Shown: piece by piece, positions 22,392 through 31,332 of the stretch
Layout of the letters: each line of letters opens with the position of its first letter
How positions within the stretch are numbered: position 1 is the first letter of the stretch
NCBI RefSeq assembly: GCF_015278315.1
Contig: NZ_JADIJE010000008.1
Coordinates: 62,001-126,000 of the forward strand
DNA length: 64,000 bases
Direction: 5' to 3'
DNA from: Microbacterium ureisolvens
GTDB taxonomy: Bacteria; Actinomycetota; Actinomycetes; Actinomycetales; Microbacteriaceae
The notes under the pieces: model-generated
Databases searched by the model: none
Told to the model about the DNA's origin: nothing
The model's input: only the letters and a program-made list of their open reading frames with translations
Made by a program: the position numbers and the translations under genes

Positions 22392-25190
22392 ATGACGCAG
22401 CCGCTGAGCCCCGCACCGCTGACGGAGGCGCGGCTGACCGTCGCCCGCCCCTGGGCACTGCCGGTCGACGACGTGCTGGCTCACCTCGAGGCCGACGCGG
22501 GCGGACTGCGCGCCGATGACGCGGCGGCGCGACTGGAGATCGCCGGTCCGAACCGGCTGCCGGAGCCCGCGCGCAAGCCCGCGGTGCTGCGCTTCCTCTC
22601 GCACTTCAACGACACGCTGATCTACATCCTGCTCGGCGCCGCCGTGATCAAGGCGCTCATGGGCGACTGGCTGGACTTCTGGGTCATCATGGTCGTCGCG
22701 ATCATCAACGCGGTGATCGGCTACATCCAGGAGGGGCGGGCCGAGAAGGCCCTGGCCGGAATCCGGGGGATGATCTCGGCGGACGCCAGCGTGCGCCGCG
22801 ACGGCGGCTGGGTCACCGTCACGGCAGCCGATCTGGTGCCCGGCGACGTCGTGCGGCTCATGCCCGGAGACAAGGTCCCCGCCGACCTGCGGCTGCTGCA
22901 GTCGTTCCAGCTGCGCATCGACGAGGCGGCGCTCACGGGGGAGTCCGTGCCGTCGTCGAAGACGACCGATCCCGTCGCAGCGGAGGCGGGTGTCGGCGAC
23001 CGCGGATCGATGGCCTTCTCGGGCACGATCGTGAGCGCCGGACAGGGACGCGGCGTCGTGACCGCGACCGCCACCGACACCGAGCTCGGACGCATCCAGA
23101 GCCTGGCCGACGAAGCCGACGCGCTGGCGACGCCGCTCACCAGGCAGCTCGACAGCTTCGGACGTGTGCTCACCGTGGTCATCCTGGGCATGGCGGCGGT
23201 CATGCTGATGATCGGGCGCTTCCTGCACGGGATGCCGTTCGACGAGATCATCTCGGCGGCCGTCGGGTTCGCGGTGGCGGCGATCCCGGAGGGCCTTCCC
23301 GCGCTCGTGACGATCACGCTCGCGATCGGCGTGCAGCAGATGGCACGTCACAACGCCATCACCCGCAAGCTCCCCGCCGTGGAGGCACTGGGCTCGGTCA
23401 CCACGGTGTGCTCCGACAAGACCGGCACGCTGACCCGCAACGAGATGACGGTGCGCCACATCGTCACCCCGCTGGCGGAGTACGACGTCACCGGCCTCGG
23501 CTACGTCCCCGAGGGCGAGATCGTCCGCGTCGGCGAAGCCGCGACGGCGGAGACCACCGCGGCCGACTCACCGTCGGCCGACCGTGGCGACCTGGCAGCC
23601 ATCCTCGCGATCGCCACCTTGTGCAACGACGCGCACATCGTGCGCGGCGACGACGGCGCGTGGACCCTCGTGGGCGAGCCGACCGAGGGCGCGCTGAAGG
23701 TCGTGGCGATGAAGGGCGGCGTCGGGAGTGCCGGCGGACGCCGCGTCGCGGTGATCCCCTTCGACTCGGCCAACAAGCTGATGGCGACCCTCAACGAGGG
23801 TGCGCGATCGGGCGGCGCTTCGGGGGAGGTCTCACGCGCCATCCTGGTGAAGGGCGCTCCCGACCGGCTGCTGGAGCGCTCGCTCACCCAGCGCGGGGCG
23901 GACGGCGCCGAGCCCCTCGATCTGGCGCGCTGGGAGCAGGCGATCGCGCGCCTCAGCGGTCAAGGGCTGCGAGTGCTGGCCGCGGCCCGCAAGCCCGTGC
24001 GGGCCACGACCGACGAGTTCGCCCTCGACGACCTGGTCGACCTCGAGTTCCTGGGCCTATGGGGCATCGTCGACCCGCCCCGGCCTGAGGCCGTCGAGGC
24101 GATCGCCGACTGCCACGCCGCCGGCATCCGCGTGAAGATGATCACGGGCGATCACGCCGGTACAGCGCTCGCGATCGCGAACGAGATGGGCCTGGCGGGC
24201 GCCGACGCGGACGTGCTGACGGGCGCCGAGCTCGAGGCTCTCAGCCAGGAGCAGCTGCGCGAGGTGGTGCGCGACGTCGACGTATATGCGCGCACCAGCC
24301 CCGAGCACAAGATCCGCATCGTGCGGGCGCTGCAGTCCCACGGCGAGGTCGTCGCGATGACCGGGGACGGGGTGAACGACGCACCCGCGCTGACGCGCGC
24401 CGACGTCGGCATCGCGATGGGCATCAAGGGCACCGAGGCCACCAAGGAGGCCGCCGAGTTCGTCCTCGCGGACGACAATTTCGCGACGATCCGCAGCGCG
24501 ATCGCCGAAGGGCGGCGCATCTACGACAACCTCCGCAAATCCGTGGTCTTCCTCCTGCCTACGAACGGCGCGCAGTCGCTCGTCATCCTGGTCGCGGTGG
24601 TGTTCGGACTGGCGCTGCCGGTGACGAGCGTGCAGGTGCTGTGGGTCAACATGATCACGGCCGTCACCCTCTCGCTCGCACTCGCCTACGAGCCGGCGGA
24701 GCGGGGCATCATGCGACGGCCGCCGCGGGCTACGGGCGGCCCGATCATCAACCGCGGCGAGCTCGGATTCATCCTCGTCGTATCGCTCCTCATCGGCGGC
24801 GCCACCATGGGCGTCTTCTACGGTGTGGTGGCGACCGGTGTCGACATCGAGGTCGCCCGCACCGAGGCCGTCCTCATGCTCGCGCTCGGACAGCTCGCTT
24901 ATCTGCTCAACTGCCGCTTCCTCACCCGCTCGAGCCTCACCCTCGACGTGCTGCGCGGCAACCGGGCCGTGTGGTTGTCGGCGCTCGCGCTCGTCGTGCT
25001 GCAGCTCGTCTACACCTACGTTCCCTTCATGAACGTGCTCTTCGACTCACGACCGCTGGCCCCCGCAGACTGGATCGTCCCGATCGGCGCGTCGATCGGC
25101 ATCTTCCTGGCGGTCGAGGCGCTGAAGGCGGTGCTGCGGGCGCGGTCCTCCTCATCGCTCGCGGCGGGCTCGCTCAAAGGCGGCTCATAG
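22392..25190 (+). CDS. P-type cation-transporting ATPase, P2A/CtpF-like
   Basis: A 932-residue membrane pump that exports a cation using ATP. It has the actuator LTGESVP, the phosphorylation site CSDKTGTLT with Asp342, MITGDHAGTA, and the hinge GDGVNDAPAL. M4 reads AAIPEGLP, as in Ca-type pumps, but M6 reads WVNMITAVTLSLALAYEP: the Asp that binds Ca in SERCA is replaced by Ala, as I recall for mycobacterial CtpF. Ca, Mn or Na are possible substrates. ATG 22392 follows GGAAGGA. It probably extends the glmU-prs operon. Confidence 0.88.
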   Translation: MTQPLSPAPLTEARLTVARPWALPVDDVLAHLEADAGGLRADDAAARLEIAGPNRLPEPARKPAVLRFLSHFNDTLIYILLGAAVIKALMGDWLDFWVIMVVAIINAVIGYIQEGRAEKALAGIRGMISADASVRRDGGWVTVTAADLVPGDVVRLMPGDKVPADLRLLQSFQLRIDEAALTGESVPSSKTTDPVAAEAGVGDRGSMAFSGTIVSAGQGRGVVTATATDTELGRIQSLADEADALATPLTRQLDSFGRVLTVVILGMAAVMLMIGRFLHGMPFDEIISAAVGFAVAAIPEGLPALVTITLAIGVQQMARHNAITRKLPAVEALGSVTTVCSDKTGTLTRNEMTVRHIVTPLAEYDVTGLGYVPEGEIVRVGEAATAETTAADSPSADRGDLAAILAIATLCNDAHIVRGDDGAWTLVGEPTEGALKVVAMKGGVGSAGGRRVAVIPFDSANKLMATLNEGARSGGASGEVSRAILVKGAPDRLLERSLTQRGADGAEPLDLARWEQAIARLSGQGLRVLAAARKPVRATTDEFALDDLVDLEFLGLWGIVDPPRPEAVEAIADCHAAGIRVKMITGDHAGTALAIANEMGLAGADADVLTGAELEALSQEQLREVVRDVDVYARTSPEHKIRIVRALQSHGEVVAMTGDGVNDAPALTRADVGIAMGIKGTEATKEAAEFVLADDNFATIRSAIAEGRRIYDNLRKSVVFLLPTNGAQSLVILVAVVFGLALPVTSVQVLWVNMITAVTLSLALAYEPAERGIMRRPPRATGGPIINRGELGFILVVSLLIGGATMGVFYGVVATGVDIEVARTEAVLMLALGQLAYLLNCRFLTRSSLTLDVLRGNRAVWLSALALVVLQLVYTYVPFMNVLFDSRPLAPADWIVPIGASIGIFLAVEALKAVLRARSSSSLAAGSLKGGS

Positions 25191-25271
25191 GACCGGTTGA
25201 CAGGATCGTGAGCGACGCAGACCGCGTCGCGCACCATTCACACGAGCCAGACCCGAGCCAGGAGGACCGTC

Positions 25272-25748
25272 ATGATCCGCACCGCACTCGCTTCCCGCCC
25301 TGTCCGCGCCGGCGCGGCGCTCTCCGCCGCCGCCGGCATCGCGCTCCTCGCCGGATGTGCGCCCACCGCATCCGAGGCCGAAGAGCCGACGACCACCGAC
25401 GCGGAGACCTCCGAGTCCACCGACTCGGGCTCGGCGGGCTCCGGGTCGGGCTCGTACGCCGACGGCACCTACACCGCCGAGGGGTCGTACGCGACGCCCG
25501 AGTCGGTCGAGAAGATCACCGTCACGGTGACCCTCGCCGACGACGTGATCACCGATGTCGAGGTGACCGGAGACCCGCAGAAGCGCGAGTCGGAGCAGTA
25601 CCAGGGCCAGTTCATCGGCGGCATCGCCGACGTCGTCGTCGGTGAGGACATCGACGACATCCAGGTCAGCCGCGTCGCCGGCTCGTCGCTCACCAGCAAC
25701 GGCTTCAACGAGGCGATCGAGTCGATCAAGACCGAGGCCGCGGGCTAG
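25272..25748 (+). CDS. FMN-binding-domain lipoprotein
   Basis: A 158-residue exported lipoprotein with signal peptide, lipobox LLAGC (Cys29), a Ser/Thr/Glu/Gly-rich linker to about residue 62, then one FMN_bind domain ending VAGSSLTSNGFNEAIESI. In this family FMN is esterified to a Thr near the C-terminus; Thr141 is the candidate acceptor, though the site is SSLT rather than the common SGAT. It would carry electrons outside the membrane. ATG 25272 follows GGAGG, and apbE starts 2 nt after its stop, which supports a flavinylated role. Confidence 0.88.
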   Translation: MIRTALASRPVRAGAALSAAAGIALLAGCAPTASEAEEPTTTDAETSESTDSGSAGSGSGSYADGTYTAEGSYATPESVEKITVTVTLADDVITDVEVTGDPQKRESEQYQGQFIGGIADVVVGEDIDDIQVSRVAGSSLTSNGFNEAIESIKTEAAG

Positions 25749-25750
25749 AT

Positions 25751-26722
25751 ATGACCGCCGCCGCGGCGTCGTGGCGCTTCGACGCGATCGGCACGGGCTG
25801 GGAGGTCGTCACCGAGCGACCCCTGCCCGCGCCGGTCCGCGCCACGGTGACGGCCCGGATCGATGCGTTCGACCGGGACTGGTCGCGGTTCCGGACCGAC
25901 TCCGCGGTGAGCGCGCTCGCGCGCGGGGGCGGCTCGATCGCCGCGCCCGTGGACGCCGTCGCCATGCTCGACGCTCTCGCCGCACTCTCGGCAGCGACCG
26001 GGGGAGCGGTCAACCCGCTCGTGGGCGACTCGCTCGACGCGCTCGGCTACGGCGTGGACTACTCGTTGCGCAGCGGCCGGCCCGTTCCGGCCCCCGGCGA
26101 CTGGATCGAGCGCCTGAGCTGGCGCGACGGTCGCCTCGCCCTGCGCGAGCTCGCCACCGTCGACGTCGGTGCGCTCGGGAAGGGCCGGCTCGTCGACCTC
26201 GTGCTCGAGATCGTCGGCAGCTCCGTGGACGGCGACGTGACGGTCGACGCGAGCGGCGACCTCGCGGTCCGAGGGCGTCCGCAGCGCATCGGGCTGGAGC
26301 ATCCGTACGACGCCCGCCGCGCCATCGGGGTGTGGGAGGTGACGGATGCCGCGCTCTGCGCCTCCGCCGTCAACCGGCGCGCATGGCCGTCGGCGACGGG
26401 GGAGACGCTGCATCACGTGCTCGACGCCCGCACCGGGCAGCCGGTGCGCACGATCGCGGCGACCTGGGCCGTCGCGCCGGAGGCGATGATGGCCGACGCG
26501 ATCGCCACGGCGCTGTTCTTCGACGGCGGGCCGCGCCTCGCCCACCAGTGGGGAGTCGAGTGGGTGCGCATGACCACGGACGGCCGCGTCGAGTGGTCGC
26601 CGGGATGTCACGCCGATCTGTTCGTGCGAACCGATGCCGGCGCCCGCACCGCACCGGCTTCGCGACCGACCGGCGGCCCGCGGACCGTGGCGGGTCCTCG
26701 ACCGAATAGCCTGGAACGGTGA
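25751..26722 (+). CDS. apbE: FAD:protein FMN transferase
   Basis: Attaches FMN covalently to Thr/Ser of exported flavoproteins; the obvious client is the lipoprotein encoded 2 nt upstream. The 323-residue protein has the ApbE features VDVGALGKGRLVD, DASGDLAVRG, HHVLDARTGQPV and the Mg-binding AMMADAIATALFF. No clear export signal is visible, unlike many ApbE lipoproteins, so its location is uncertain. A 40-residue Pro/Arg/Thr-rich C-terminal tail is unusual. The stop overlaps the MOSC start. Confidence 0.92.
   Translation: MTAAAASWRFDAIGTGWEVVTERPLPAPVRATVTARIDAFDRDWSRFRTDSAVSALARGGGSIAAPVDAVAMLDALAALSAATGGAVNPLVGDSLDALGYGVDYSLRSGRPVPAPGDWIERLSWRDGRLALRELATVDVGALGKGRLVDLVLEIVGSSVDGDVTVDASGDLAVRGRPQRIGLEHPYDARRAIGVWEVTDAALCASAVNRRAWPSATGETLHHVLDARTGQPVRTIAATWAVAPEAMMADAIATALFFDGGPRLAHQWGVEWVRMTTDGRVEWSPGCHADLFVRTDAGARTAPASRPTGGPRTVAGPRPNSLER
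26707..26718 (+). promoter_or_regulatory. Internal leaderless -10 box before the MOSC gene
   Basis: TAGCCT (26707-26712), 6 nt, then GTG 26719. It lies within the apbE 3' end, so the MOSC and RnfD-FNR genes may have a second promoter. Confidence 0.5.
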
Positions 26723-27273
26723 CCGAGCCCCTCCCCGGACACGTCGTCGCGGTCGCCCGTGACGACGCGCATCGCTTCAGCAAGCCGACGCGCGAGAGCA
26801 TCACCCTGATCGCCGGCCTCGGCGTCGAGGGCGATGCGCACGCCGGCGCCACCGTCCAGCACCTCTCCCGCATCCGGCGCGACCCCACGACGCCGAACCT
26901 GCGCCAGGTGCACCTGATCCATGCCGAGCTCTTCGACGACGTCGCCGCCCGCGGCCACGAGGTGGCCCCCGGCGCCCTCGGCGAGAACATCACGACCTCC
27001 GGCATCGATCTGCTCGCCCTGCCGCGAGGAGCCCGACTCGAGGTCGGGGACGAGGCCGTGGTCGAGATCACGGGCCTGCGCAATCCCTGCGCGCAGATCA
27101 ACGGCATCTCGGAAGGACTCATGAAGGAGCTGGTCTACGTCGACGAGGCGGGCGACACCGTGCGCCTGGCGGGCGTCATGTCGGTCGTCCTGCGCGGCGG
27201 CGTCGTCCGCCCGGGTGACGGCATCCGCGTCATTCTGCCTGCGGGCACTCCCGAGCCCCTGCAGCCGGTGTGA
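26719..27273 (+). CDS. MOSC domain protein
   Basis: A 184-residue beta-barrel protein of the molybdenum-cofactor sulfurase C-terminal family. The conserved Cys is present in TGLRNPCAQI, together with LGENITTSGIDL and the VLRGGVVRPGDGI end. Stand-alone MOSC proteins include YiiM-type proteins acting on hydroxylaminopurine and amidoxime-reducing proteins; the role here is unknown. It overlaps apbE by 4 nt and is followed after 4 nt by the RnfD-FNR fusion, so it sits inside the electron-transfer cluster. Confidence 0.88.
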   Translation: MTEPLPGHVVAVARDDAHRFSKPTRESITLIAGLGVEGDAHAGATVQHLSRIRRDPTTPNLRQVHLIHAELFDDVAARGHEVAPGALGENITTSGIDLLALPRGARLEVGDEAVVEITGLRNPCAQINGISEGLMKELVYVDEAGDTVRLAGVMSVVLRGGVVRPGDGIRVILPAGTPEPLQPV

Positions 27274-27277
27274 TCCG

Positions 27278-28840
27278 ATGGGCACCCTCACCGCTGTATG
27301 GAACCGCGTCTTCGCGGTGCTCGGCCGCATGTCGATGTACCGCCTCGTCTACCTGGCGCTCGCCGCGCTAGCCGTCGTCGCGCTGCTGCTGTCGTTCTTC
27401 GGCCTCGTCGGCCCGGGTCCGCTGGAGCTGGTCGTCACCCTCCTGGTGCTGGCCGCCGTCTGCGTGGGGGTGGATGCCGCGGCCCAGCGGGTGATGCACC
27501 TGCCCTGGCGCCTGGAATCCTCGCTCATCACCGCGCACATCCTGCTCTTCGTCCTGCGACCGACCCTCGACCTCGTCGGCCTCGCGGGGATCGCACTCGC
27601 TGCGGCCGTCGCATCGCTGTCGAAGTACGTGCTCGCCTGGCGCGGCCGCCACATCTTCAACCCCGCCGCCGTCGGTGCGACGGTCGTCACGCTGCTCAGC
27701 CTGGTGTGGCCGGGACTCGGGTCGTCGGCGTGGTGGGTGGGCACGCCGGCGCTCGCCGCGCCGGTCATCGTGCTCGGCCTCGCGGTGCTCGTGCGCACCG
27801 AGAAGCTGCGGGTGGTGGCGGTGTTCCTCGTCATCGCCGTCGGCGTCGCCGTCTTCCGCACGGCGGCGCAGTATCAGGCGGCCGGGCTCGAGGTCGAGGT
27901 CCTCGACATGCTGTGGCCCATCCTGTGGTCCTCGCCGTTCCTGTTCCTCGGCGCCTTCATGCTGTCGGAGCCGCTCACGCTGCCCCCGCGCCGCTGGCAG
28001 CAGCTCACCGTCGCGGCCGTCGTCGGCGTGCTGGCGGGCTGGCCGCTGCCGATCGGCGACATCACCCTCGGTCAGGAGCGCGCGCTACTGGTGGGCAACC
28101 TCATCGCTTTCGCGTTCGCCGTGCGCACGGCGGTGCGGCTGACGCTCGTGTCGCGCGCCGAACCCACGCCGACGGTCGAGGAGCTGACCTTCCGCGTGCA
28201 CGACCGCCTCGCATTCCTGCCGGGTCAGTACCTGGAGCTCGAGGTGCCGCACCGGCACCCCGACGCCCGCGGGACGCGGCGCGAGTTCAGCATCGCCTCC
28301 GCCCCCGAGGATCTGCCGCTGCTCAAGGTGGCGTTCAAGGACGGCAAGAGCACGAAGCCGCTGAGCTCGTACAAGAAGGCGCTGGCGCAGGTCGCGCCCG
28401 GCGACGACCTGGCCATCACGGGCGTGTGGGGCGACTTCCTGCTGCCCAAGCGCGACGCCGCTCCGATCCTGATGGTTGCCGCCGGCATCGGCGTGACGCC
28501 GTTCGTGTCGCAGCTGCGGCACGTCCGGGCGGCGGGGCTGGATCGCGACATCGTGCTGGTCTACGTGGCGTCGGATGCCTCGGAGCTGGCGTTCCGCGAC
28601 GAGATCGAGGCGTCCGGCGCCCACGTCGTCGTCTTCACGCGCGACCGCCCTGCCCATCTGCCGGAGCACTGGCAGTGGGCGCGGGGCGTGCGCCTGGATG
28701 CGGACGGCCTCCTGCGCGTCGTGCCCGACATCGGCTCGCGCCACGCGTACATCTCGGGGCCTGCCGGCCTCATCGCCGAGCTCGCGCCGGCGCTGGAGCG
28801 CGCCCGCTCGATCACCACCGACGCCTTCAGCGGCTACTGA
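27278..28840 (+). CDS. RnfD/NqrB-like membrane domain fused to FAD/NAD(P) oxidoreductase
   Basis: A 520-residue fusion. Residues 1 to about 290 hold around nine membrane segments with the RnfD/NqrB-type motif GRHIFNPAAVGAT (123-135). Residues about 300-520 form a ferredoxin-NADP-reductase-like module with FAD motif RREFSIASAP, then AAGIGVTPFVSQL for NAD(P). A typical SGAT flavinylation motif is not visible in the membrane part. The inferred path is NAD(P)H to FAD, across the membrane, to the FMN lipoprotein. Start ATG 27278 is 4 nt after the MOSC stop. Confidence 0.85.
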   Translation: MGTLTAVWNRVFAVLGRMSMYRLVYLALAALAVVALLLSFFGLVGPGPLELVVTLLVLAAVCVGVDAAAQRVMHLPWRLESSLITAHILLFVLRPTLDLVGLAGIALAAAVASLSKYVLAWRGRHIFNPAAVGATVVTLLSLVWPGLGSSAWWVGTPALAAPVIVLGLAVLVRTEKLRVVAVFLVIAVGVAVFRTAAQYQAAGLEVEVLDMLWPILWSSPFLFLGAFMLSEPLTLPPRRWQQLTVAAVVGVLAGWPLPIGDITLGQERALLVGNLIAFAFAVRTAVRLTLVSRAEPTPTVEELTFRVHDRLAFLPGQYLELEVPHRHPDARGTRREFSIASAPEDLPLLKVAFKDGKSTKPLSSYKKALAQVAPGDDLAITGVWGDFLLPKRDAAPILMVAAGIGVTPFVSQLRHVRAAGLDRDIVLVYVASDASELAFRDEIEASGAHVVVFTRDRPAHLPEHWQWARGVRLDADGLLRVVPDIGSRHAYISGPAGLIAELAPALERARSITTDAFSGY

Positions 28841-28925
28841 GCCCGTGTGCTCCGCCGCGCCCGCGGCACGTGCGCTCCGTCCGCCCACGGCCCGCGGCCC
28901 GTGGCCCGATGAAGCCCGATGAAGC

Positions 28926-28998
28926 CCGCGAGAGTACAGCTGGTCGCCGAGATCCGGGTTGGTTCCCGCCCCCTCGTCGACCAGCAGTACTCTCGCGG
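28926..28998. other. 73-nt long hairpin between convergent genes
   Basis: Arms CGCGAGAGTACAGCTGGTCG (28927-28946) and CGACCAGCAGTACTCTCGCG (28978-28997) pair with one mismatch. The interior continues with CGAG/CTCG and CGGG/CCCG, closing on a TTGGTT loop. It lies between the RnfD-FNR fusion and the convergent histidine kinase gene. No T-run follows. It could be a bidirectional terminator, a structured RNA or a mobile palindrome. Confidence 0.8.
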
Positions 28999-29014
28999 AG
29001 AAGGTGACGGGTGG

Positions 29015-30607
29015 TCAGGCGGGGGTGACCGGGTCGGCCGGACGGGCGGGGAGGCGCACCTCGAAGGTGGTGTCTCCCGGTGCGCTCGTGACACGGATGC
29101 TGCCGCCGTGGGCATCGACGATGGCTCGGGCGATCGAGAGGCCGAGGCCGGTGCCGCCGGTCTGACGCGCGCGCGAGCGGTCGCCGCGCGAGAAGCGCTC
29201 GAAGAGCTCGTCCGTGATCGCCGGATCTATGCCGGGGCCGTCGTCGTGCACGCGCAGCACCGCGTCGCGGCCGTTGCGGGTGACGCTGACCGTGACCGTC
29301 GTGCCGGCCGGGGTGTGCGTGCGCGCGTTGGCGAGGAGGTTCGCCGCCACCTGGTGCAGGCGCCCGGCATCGCCGGCGATGAGCACCGGCTCGTCGCCGA
29401 CCTCGAGCACCCACTCGTGGTCGGGGCCGGTGGGTGTGACGTCGCCGACCGCGTCGATCGCCAGGCGCGTCAGGTCGACGGTGCCGTAGACGAGCTCCTG
29501 CCCCTCGTCGAGCCTTGCGAGCAGCAGCAGATCCTCGACGAGCGAGGTCATGCGCAGCGACTGCGCCTGGATGCGCTCGAGCGATGCCTCGGTCGTCTCC
29601 AGTGTCATGGCCTCCGGTCCGCGTGCCTCACGGGGCGCGCGCCCGAGCGCCTTGAGCGAGAGCTCGGAGTACCCGCGGATCGACGCGAGCGGGGTGCGCA
29701 GCTCGTGGCTGGCGTCGGCGACGAAGGCGCGCATGCGCTCCTCGTTGCGCTGGCGGGCGCTGAGCGACTCGTCCACGTGGTCCAGCAGTGTGTTGAGCGC
29801 GGCGCCCACACGGCCGACCTCGGTGCGCGGGTCCGACTCGCGCACCGGGACGCGCTCGGCGATCGAGACCTCGCCCTGGGCGAGCTGCTGGGCAGACACG
29901 CGGGCCGCGGTGTCGGCCACGGCACGCAGCGGTGCGAGCCCGCGGCGGATCGTCCACGCGGTCGCGACGGCCAGCAGGATCAGACCACCCGCGGTGAGCA
30001 GGCCGATGGTCGTCAGCATGCGGGTGAGCGTGTCGCTGATCCCCGCTCGCGACAGACCGACGATCGCGTACGCGTTTCCGAGTGCGACCGGTTCGATCCG
30101 GTAGGTGCCGAGGTCGTCGATCGTCACCACGAGCTGACCCCGCTGCTCTTCGACGCTCGCGACGATCCCGCTGATCTGCGCGTCGGTGAGAGCCACGATG
30201 TCGCCGTCCGAGTCGACGACCGCGGCCGTCGGCCGGCCCGGGGTGGACTCGACCGCGAGAAAGTACCCGGGTCGCGCCGGCTGCTGTTGCTGGAGGATCT
30301 GCTCGGCGGAGAGACCTGTGGCGATCGGACCACGCAAGAACTCGACGCTCTGGCGCGCGGCCTTCACCTCGTTGTCGAGCTGGGTTTCGAGGACCTGTCC
30401 GAGGATGGCGCTCGTCGCGACCGCGACCAGCACCATGATGAACGACGTGATCCCGACCACGGTGACGATGAGCTTGCGCTGCAGCGTCCACGGCGCGCGC
30501 CGGGGGAGCTCCTCGTCGTTCGTGGCGTCCGCGGGCCCGGCGGCGTCGGACGTCTCGCCCGGCGCGGTCGCGCGGGTCGCGGCATCCGTCATCTTCTCTA
30601 CCGTCAT
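29015..30607 (-). CDS. Sensor histidine kinase
   Basis: A 530-residue membrane kinase. A 40-residue Ala/Asp/Glu-rich cytoplasmic N-terminus is followed by TM1 (about 46-70), an extracytoplasmic sensor region (about 71-195), TM2 (about 199-220), HAMP, the dimerisation/phosphoacceptor box DASHELRTPLASIRGY with His301, and an HATPase domain with NLLANARTHTPAG, DDGPGID and GGTGLGLSIA. The ATG at 30607 overlaps the regulator stop (ATGA). The likely job, from the divergent transporter, is sensing an envelope stress or an exported compound. Confidence 0.93.
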   Translation of the reverse strand: MTVEKMTDAATRATAPGETSDAAGPADATNDEELPRRAPWTLQRKLIVTVVGITSFIMVLVAVATSAILGQVLETQLDNEVKAARQSVEFLRGPIATGLSAEQILQQQQPARPGYFLAVESTPGRPTAAVVDSDGDIVALTDAQISGIVASVEEQRGQLVVTIDDLGTYRIEPVALGNAYAIVGLSRAGISDTLTRMLTTIGLLTAGGLILLAVATAWTIRRGLAPLRAVADTAARVSAQQLAQGEVSIAERVPVRESDPRTEVGRVGAALNTLLDHVDESLSARQRNEERMRAFVADASHELRTPLASIRGYSELSLKALGRAPREARGPEAMTLETTEASLERIQAQSLRMTSLVEDLLLLARLDEGQELVYGTVDLTRLAIDAVGDVTPTGPDHEWVLEVGDEPVLIAGDAGRLHQVAANLLANARTHTPAGTTVTVSVTRNGRDAVLRVHDDGPGIDPAITDELFERFSRGDRSRARQTGGTGLGLSIARAIVDAHGGSIRVTSAPGDTTFEVRLPARPADPVTPA

Positions 30608-31332
30608 TGCGGAGCCTTGATCATGTAGCCGACGCCGCGCACCGTGTGGATCAGGGGCTCGTGGCCGGCGTCGATCTTCTTGCGGAGGTACGAGATGTAC
30701 AGCTCGACGACGCTCGACCGGCCGCCGAAGTCGTAGTTCCACACGCGGTCGAGGATCTGCGCCTTCGACACGACGCGGCGCTGGTTGCGCATGAGGTAGC
30801 GCAGCAGCTCGAACTCCGTCGCGGTGAGGTCGATCTCGGTGCCGGAGCGCTCGACCTCGTGGCTGTCCTCGTTGAGGGTGAGGTCGCCGACGCGGAGGAT
30901 CGGCTCGGCGCCCGCGGCGTGCGCGGTGCCGGCCCGGCGCATGAGCCCGCGCAGCCGCGCGACGACCTCTTCGAGGCTGAAGGGCTTGGTGACGTAGTCG
31001 TCGCCGCCCGCGGTGAGCCCGGCGACGCGGTCGCTGACGGCGTCCTTCGCGGTGAGGAACAGCACCGGCACGTCGTCGCCGGCTTGGCGCAGCCGCTGCA
31101 GCACCGCCATGCCGTCGAGATCGGGCATCATCACATCCAGCACCATGGCGTCGGGCTCGAACTCGCGCGCCGACTGCAGCGCCTCGAAGCCCGACCCCGC
31201 GGTGCGCACCTCCCAGCCCTCCATGCGCAGCGCCATCGACAGCAGGTCGGTGAGCATCTGCTCGTCGTCGACCACGAGAACGCGGAGGTTCGAGCCGTCG
31301 GGACGCAGCAGGGCGGGTGCGGGGTTCGTCAT
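30604..31332 (-). CDS. OmpR/PhoB-family response regulator
   Basis: A 242-residue partner of the kinase. The receiver domain has VVDDEQ, phospho-acceptor Asp66 in MVLDVMMPD, and LTAKD and VTKPFS switch residues; the C-terminal winged helix ends SVVELYISYLRKKID then HTVRGVGYMI. CACAAT (31339-31344, minus strand) lies 6 nt from the ATG. Three CATAG repeats at 11-12 bp steps lie just upstream, in place of a -35 element, which suggests positive autoregulation. Confidence 0.94.
   Translation of the reverse strand: MTNPAPALLRPDGSNLRVLVVDDEQMLTDLLSMALRMEGWEVRTAGSGFEALQSAREFEPDAMVLDVMMPDLDGMAVLQRLRQAGDDVPVLFLTAKDAVSDRVAGLTAGGDDYVTKPFSLEEVVARLRGLMRRAGTAHAAGAEPILRVGDLTLNEDSHEVERSGTEIDLTATEFELLRYLMRNQRRVVSKAQILDRVWNYDFGGRSSVVELYISYLRKKIDAGHEPLIHTVRGVGYMIKAPQ

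Follow-up and report, generated by a model that had tools for sequence, protein, structure and literature searches.

A conserved three-gene flavinylation cluster in Microbacterium and its predicted role in electron export

A 64,000-nucleotide stretch of the genome of Microbacterium ureisolvens (contig NZ_JADIJE010000008.1, positions 62,001 to 126,000), referred to below as the window, carries at 25272–28840 four packed genes on the + strand. These encode a lipoprotein with an FMN_bind domain (FMN, flavin mononucleotide), the FAD:protein FMN transferase ApbE (FAD, flavin adenine dinucleotide), a MOSC-domain protein, and a fusion protein in which an RnfD/NqrB-like membrane domain is followed by an FNR-type reductase domain. 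The host genome is 4.49 Mb in 35 contigs. The conserved unit is three genes: lipoprotein, ApbE and fusion. We conclude that the cluster is very probably an Nqr/Rnf-like flavinylation system, predicted to export electrons from the reduced nicotinamide cofactor NAD(P)H to FMN on the lipoprotein, with no need for the MOSC protein. The class of RnfD/NqrB-FNR clusters is already known from genome surveys; the MOSC gene is a local extra.

Conservation of the gene cluster

The original prediction, made from the DNA letters, described the four genes as tightly packed or overlapping, which the coordinates and Pfam matches confirm. The lipoprotein (25272–25748, 158 residues) matches PF04205 with 26.8 bits (cut-off 22) and has a lipobox, LAGC, at residues 26–29 (25347–25358), ending in Cys29, which is invariant in an alignment of 35; it is predicted to be a lipid-anchored extracytosolic flavin carrier. 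Its gene is separated by 2 bases from apbE (25751–26722, 323 residues, PF02424, E 7e-35), whose product has no signal peptide that we could see, a point on which the original prediction is silent. There is a 4-base overlap between apbE and the MOSC gene (26719–27273, PF03473, E 3e-15), and a gap of 4 bases between the MOSC gene and the fusion gene (27278–28840, 520 residues, assigned from Pfam domains and predicted structure), taking the ATG at 27278 as its start; an alternative in-frame start, GTG at 27215, would make the fusion overlap the MOSC gene. An Rfam search of 24900–29400 found nothing at the gathering score.

The fusion was used to find 190 loci, the best 80 of which form a close set, titled as 75 Microbacterium, 2 Microbacteriaceae, 2 Actinomycetes and 1 Planococcus. 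A distant set of 60 loci contains about 55 from other genera (Microbacteriaceae, Micrococcales and other Actinobacteria) and 4 further Microbacterium. ApbE is present in all 80 close loci and the lipoprotein in 78, both misses being contigs that start inside ApbE; in the distant set the figures are 57/60 and 56/60 respectively. The conservation of the gene set across close and distant loci excludes chance as the origin of the cluster. It also upholds the lipoprotein as partner of the fusion, as originally predicted, and the conservation of the neighbourhood in relatives, which had been put forward as a check, holds for the three-gene core.

Individual loci depart from this arrangement. The lipoprotein frame lies approximately 2.6 kb upstream of ApbE in L171, the fusion is split in L174, and L175 has only the reductase part of the fusion. 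An FMN_bind gene adjoins the fusion, with no ApbE detected, in L158 and L150, the former being a second copy in genome G097, where the other copy (L157) does have ApbE. An apparent single-chain ApbE–fusion in L147 was rejected on account of a frame shift at the junction.

In genome samples, which partly overlap, 112 of 119 Microbacterium genomes have the fusion (E 1e-60), as do 79 of 199 genomes sampled from the family and 35 of 297 from the order (both E 1e-30), and 11 of 396 from the phylum (E 1e-20). Because the fusion is near-universal in the sampled Microbacterium, the published electron-export class comes close to being a core trait of this genus. Two loci have unexpected labels. The one titled Planococcus sp. 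APC 4015 (L018) has a fusion that is 80% identical and groups inside Microbacterium, and is probably a mislabelled or mixed assembly; the unannotated 19 kb record of plasmid pDR48-1 of Pseudomonas sp. DR48 (L236) has FMN_bind, ApbE and fusion genes of actinobacterial type, and represents either transfer or a contaminant.

The genes around the cluster were surveyed by clustering 2290 frames of at least 90 residues from the 60 distant loci, the clusters being named by eye with no family-library run. Outside the cluster genes, the most widespread frame recurs in 15 of the 60 loci; it looks like an antisense frame of isocitrate dehydrogenase, the sense frame of which was found in 14. We looked for a conserved electron acceptor gene next door and rejected the idea, there being no such neighbour among the distant loci (not all of the clusters are annotated).

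The MOSC gene has a very different distribution. Of the 80 close loci, 19 have a near full-length MOSC gene between ApbE and the fusion, with a further locus (L009) matching over a 41-codon piece only, and in none of the 60 distant loci does MOSC lie beside the fusion. Of the 119 Microbacterium genomes, 22 have a MOSC homologue (E 1e-15), beside the fusion in 15 and elsewhere in 7, one of the latter (G164) lacking the fusion. All 20 rows that bear MOSC in a tree of 86 fusions fall inside one subclade of 34 rows; the MOSC label changes at least 6 times, against a mean of 18.3 when labels are shuffled (this is a quick FastTree tree, with open forks and long-branch warnings). The occurrence in 15 of 119 genomes, in one subclade and in none of the distant loci, makes MOSC a passenger or local accessory, and we rejected it as a core component, which is where we part from the original prediction. 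The best reading of the sequences is that MOSC is an accessory or passenger that came into one Microbacterium lineage and was lost several times. The gene is tightly packed between its neighbours here, and copies beside the fusion in other genomes are 71–95% identical, as would suit a functional fourth component, for example a partner in amidoxime (N-hydroxylated-compound) or sulfur transfer fed with electrons by the fusion; given the patchy distribution, the shortened copy in L009 and the occurrence of homologues away from any fusion, we consider such a role very improbable. A literature search found no paper linking MOSC to NQR/RNF-like systems; its single hit was a paper on an NqrC structure, where the match may simply reflect the word Moscow. 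The window genome has a second MOSC gene, approximately 67 kb away on the same contig.

The fusion protein and the predicted path of electrons

Both halves of the fusion are recognised by Pfam. The membrane RnfD/NqrB-like domain (approximately residues 13–285, 27314–28132, + strand) matches PF03116 with 25.9 bits when the whole fusion is searched, which is below the cut-off of 27.7, and with 28.7 bits when searched alone, which is above it. The cytosolic FAD/NAD(P)H reductase domain (approximately residues 284–519, 28127–28834, + strand) matches PF00175 with 25.6 bits on the whole fusion (cut-off 22) and 27.8 bits on the domain alone. A structure was predicted from 45 sequences (the window protein and 44 relatives), with a mean predicted local distance difference test (pLDDT) of 84.5 and a predicted template modelling (pTM) score of 0.66. 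In structure alignments the N-terminal half of this model matches RnfD chains 8rbq_D (Z 22.4, 252 residues, root-mean-square deviation (rmsd) 4.2) and 9eri_D (Z 22.0, 240 residues, rmsd 3.8) and NqrB chain 8evu_B (Z 21.1, 251 residues, rmsd 3.5), while the C-terminal half matches FNR-type domains with Z of approximately 21 to 24 (4eh1_B, 23.9; NqrF chains, approximately 22). The best 50 of 1417 Foldseek matches are all reductase-type chains with none labelled RnfD or NqrB, as are the best 60 of 172 matches from a sequence-profile search of solved structures; the match of the membrane domain therefore rests on Pfam and on the structure alignment of the model. The Pfam domains and fold matches together bear out the original description, in which an NAD(P)H/FAD module is joined to a membrane domain of Rnf/Nqr type.

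Several residues are invariant in all of 40 fusions: GQ, RR and GxGxTP in the reductase half, and K116, N128, P129, E231 and T234 in the membrane half. The column that, in our reading of the alignment by eye, is equivalent to the Thr that bears covalent FMN in NqrB and RnfD is variable (T in 25, S in 7, N in 6, A in 1 and D in 1 of 40), in keeping with the part of a preprint that models such a complex and describes the NqrB/RnfD flavinylation site as missing (Huang 2024, PMC10979944). No match to RnfA/RnfE/NqrD/NqrE (PF02508) was obtained in the window genome, and matches were obtained in 4 of 14 control genomes; we therefore conclude that the window genome does not encode a complete Rnf or Nqr pump.

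We propose the following path, which would begin in the cytosol, with NAD(P)H reducing the FAD of the fusion's C-terminal FNR domain, as in the family. The next carrier would be a flavin, probably bound non-covalently, in the RnfD/NqrB-like membrane domain, where a published AlphaFold model of a relative has an apparent site, and from there electrons would move outward to FMN covalently bound to the lipoprotein, probably at Ser139 on the basis of the motif described below. This FMN would be attached by ApbE, as its family and its adjacent gene suggest. The reduced lipoprotein would then pass electrons to an acceptor encoded outside the cluster, which may be a small molecule, a quinone, ferric iron or a wall protein; the original prediction likewise commits to no final acceptor. 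The flow would be one-way, with no complete Rnf/Nqr pump, and one-way flow from NAD(P)H is proposed for NQR/RNF-like systems in the relevant passages of Meheust 2021 (PMC8238504).

The same source treats the direction as reversible in principle, in which case outside electrons could enter via the lipoprotein and reduce NAD(P)+. Such a reverse flow would however be uphill with no Rnf/Nqr pump partner to drive it, and the 60 distant loci contain no conserved neighbour of any kind able to donate electrons, which makes it extremely improbable. Another alternative concerns the acceptor: the system might be chiefly an assimilatory ferric reductase serving iron uptake. Six NQR/RNF-like clusters with VIT1 transporters are described in the part of Meheust 2021 (PMC8238504) on these systems, and a VIT family gene lies near a relative of the cluster on a Mesorhizobium plasmid. 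Against this, no iron-transport neighbour is conserved among the distant loci (where not all clusters are annotated), and DtxR/IdeR-like sites in 134 upstream regions show no excess over shuffles, so that regulation of the cluster by an iron box was rejected. We consider a primarily iron-assimilating function unlikely, and prefer export of electrons to the lipoprotein.

Flavinylation of the lipoprotein

Passages in the literature on multi-flavinylated proteins give the usual flavinylation motif as Dxx[S/T]GA[S/T]. The lipoprotein in the window has a variant, SRVAGSSLTS (residues 133–142, 25668–25697, + strand), with Ser139 as predicted acceptor: in its SRVAGSS portion the G and the last S fit, but the D, [S/T] and A do not. 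The VSGATYTS of a solved FMN-binding domain, 8p2a, aligns with V[AS]GSSLTS of these lipoproteins (E 0.003). The variant is nearly constant, [AGS]GSSLT being found in 134 of 135 collected lipoproteins and SGASLT in the remaining one, in collections (135 lipoproteins and 138 ApbEs) that were made by profiles of the same proteins, and in which relatives with other motifs are therefore under-represented; two loci (L172, L173) gave no lipoprotein by this route. Start codons were assigned by our own rules, and at least 7 of the lipoproteins have a doubtful start (L007, L009, L016, L022, L038, L051 and L080). The relative on the Mesorhizobium plasmid has a canonical motif, SGATLTS, which implies that the Ser variant belongs to the actinobacterial branch and not to the whole class. 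On the lipoprotein the acceptor would be a Ser residue, predicted as Ser139.

The ApbE in the window has no N-terminal hydrophobic segment, and its domain begins approximately 10 residues after the initiator. It contains the motifs DVGALGKG, SGDL, HHVLD and ADAIATAL; all of five ApbE motif patterns of our own making occur in it, and each in between 100 and 136 of the 138 relatives. Secretion or membrane attachment through a signal peptide is usual, though not universal, among ApbEs. Two measures of a signal were applied. The first was home-made, and required a 12-residue hydropathy of at least 2.0 within the first 45 residues (first 60 for lipoproteins); none of the 138 cluster ApbEs was positive, as compared with 116 of 135 lipoproteins and the Escherichia coli ApbE. 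The second looked for an uncharged run of 14, which is present in 134 of 135 lipoproteins and in 2 of 138 ApbEs; E. coli ApbE, with a run of 13, is negative. The motif at the start of the ApbE domain lies no more than 40 residues from the chosen start in 127 of 138 proteins and at least 100 in 2, and was not found in 9; several ApbEs are truncated or have too late a start (L013, L079, L096, L127, L140 and L172).

The absence of a signal is wider than the cluster. In a sample of ApbEs from the actinomycete class (L181–L230, with L226 unscored and with L227 and L228 carrying a GSSLT lipoprotein and thus of cluster type), none of 49 reaches the hydropathy threshold, and we rejected the idea that a signal-less ApbE is peculiar to this cluster. 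Some ApbEs in this sample lie beside canonical VSGATYT motifs in FMN_bind proteins. Export by twin-arginine translocation (Tat) was rejected as a general answer to the puzzle, RR being present in the signals of 13 of the 135 lipoproteins. Signal-less ApbEs also occur on plasmids of two Rhizobiaceae genera, Agrobacterium and Ensifer (L234, 6545–7271; L235, 6824–7256), where they are 40–44% identical to the window ApbE and adjoin a small FMN_bind-like protein with the motif KLAGSSGT and a signal-like N-terminus; no fusion was detected in these plasmid stretches. A literature search on signal-less ApbE or Microbacterium found nothing on this cluster.

Some of these observations weigh against the path of electrons that we propose. 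The Asp at the first position of the flavinylation motif is present in 25 of 135 lipoproteins, and the GA[S/T] part is GSS in 134. An ApbE without a signal peptide and an exported substrate leave no simple route for flavinylation. Finally, at the position aligned with the NqrB site the window fusion does carry a Thr, which makes a second covalent flavin, on its membrane domain, conceivable.

With respect to the ApbE, there are three options: FMN may be loaded by ApbE before the lipoprotein is exported by Sec, ApbE may reach the outside by a route that has yet to be recognised, or the lipoprotein may carry no covalent FMN. We tentatively suggest, as a possibility that falls well short of being probable, that ApbE works in the cytosol, where it would attach FMN to the Ser-type motif of the lipoprotein precursor while this is unfolded or still nascent, and that Sec then exports the FMN-bearing chain. 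If this were true, covalent flavin loading would precede export in Actinobacteria, opposite to the extracytosolic order known from Gram-negative bacteria and Listeria. Alternatively, the cluster ApbE may flavinylate a cytosolic protein, leaving the lipoprotein to work with loosely bound flavin or none. The lack of a hydrophobic N-terminal segment in all the cluster ApbEs and the variant nature of the lipoprotein motif fit with this, as does a review in which the passages on cytosolic ApbEs describe cytosolic targets, for example in Klebsiella (PMC12052999). It would however leave unexplained why GSSLT is near invariant (in a set for which the lipoproteins themselves supplied the search profile), why the single FMN_bind match and the single ApbE match in the window genome are adjacent, and why the pairing of ApbE with FMN_bind persists on the Agrobacterium and Ensifer plasmids in the apparent absence of the fusion. 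We regard a purely cytosolic target as decidedly unlikely, and favour covalent loading of the lipoprotein.

The cluster ApbE is the sole ApbE match in the window genome, and the same holds for 41 of the 59 Microbacterium genomes sampled (counted by eye). With a signal-less ApbE that lies beside an exported lipoprotein, and is the sole ApbE match in so many genomes, it becomes possible to test where flavinylation takes place in Actinobacteria; Microbacterium grows in the laboratory. The order of flavinylation and export is of higher interest than the cluster itself.

Neighbouring genes and relation to known systems

A P-type cation ATPase gene (22392–25190) on the same strand ends 81 bases upstream of the cluster, and has a homologue in 27 of the 80 close loci. 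On the other side, a response regulator and histidine kinase pair (29015–31332, − strand) is convergent to the fusion; 74 of the 80 close loci have the regulator and 76 the kinase. A regulator–kinase pair is also convergent to the fusion in the Mesorhizobium plasmid relative, which has PepSY beside the pair and the VIT family gene upstream. The pair could conceivably control the cluster.

The original prediction knew of no characterised system of this exact composition. A lack of precedent is not borne out, because a two-subunit version has already been named and modelled in the relevant parts of Meheust 2021 (PMC8238504) and Huang 2024 (PMC10979944); a search of the literature found no bench characterisation of an NQR/RNF-like system. 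As described in those parts of Meheust 2021, NQR/RNF-like proteins have an N-terminal NqrB/RnfD domain (PF03116) and a C-terminal NAD-binding domain (PF00175) in one chain, and their genes lie no more than five genes away from one for ApbE or FMN_bind, with at least one of the products having a signal peptide or lipidation site; the 127 clusters reported there belong mostly to Actinobacteria and the candidate phyla radiation. The window cluster has the fused PF03116 and PF00175 domains, adjacent ApbE and FMN_bind genes, a lipobox by pattern, and a covalent-FMN Thr column that varies among the 40 fusions, and is on sequence grounds a well-supported member of this class. Given that PF04205 detects 15 of 35 lipoproteins and PF03116 17 of 40 fusions (E 0.001), counts of the class based on Pfam may be low.

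The cluster thus resembles the NQR/RNF-like systems, as far as the passages describing them go, in its NqrB/RnfD–NAD domain fusion, its FMN_bind partner, its ApbE and the lack of conservation of the covalent NqrB/RnfD site. It differs in the MOSC insertion of the window subclade, the word MOSC occurring 0 times in the main text of Meheust 2021 (PMC8238504). With Na+-NQR and Rnf it shares the NqrB/RnfD membrane fold, an NqrF-type FAD/NAD domain and an NqrC/RnfG-type FMN_bind partner; unlike them, it consists of a single fused chain in a genome with no match to NqrD/E or RnfA/E, and its FMN_bind partner has a Ser-type motif. Like the MsrQ-like systems and the flavinylation system for extracellular electron transfer (EET) of Listeria, the cluster is predicted to pass electrons from NAD(P)H to a flavinylated domain outside the cytosol. 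The membrane module of Listeria EET is Ndh2/EetAB, whereas that of the window cluster is of RnfD/NqrB type. The same module distinguishes the cluster from the MsrQ-like systems, since MsrQ is haem-binding according to the passages on those systems (Meheust 2021, PMC8238504).

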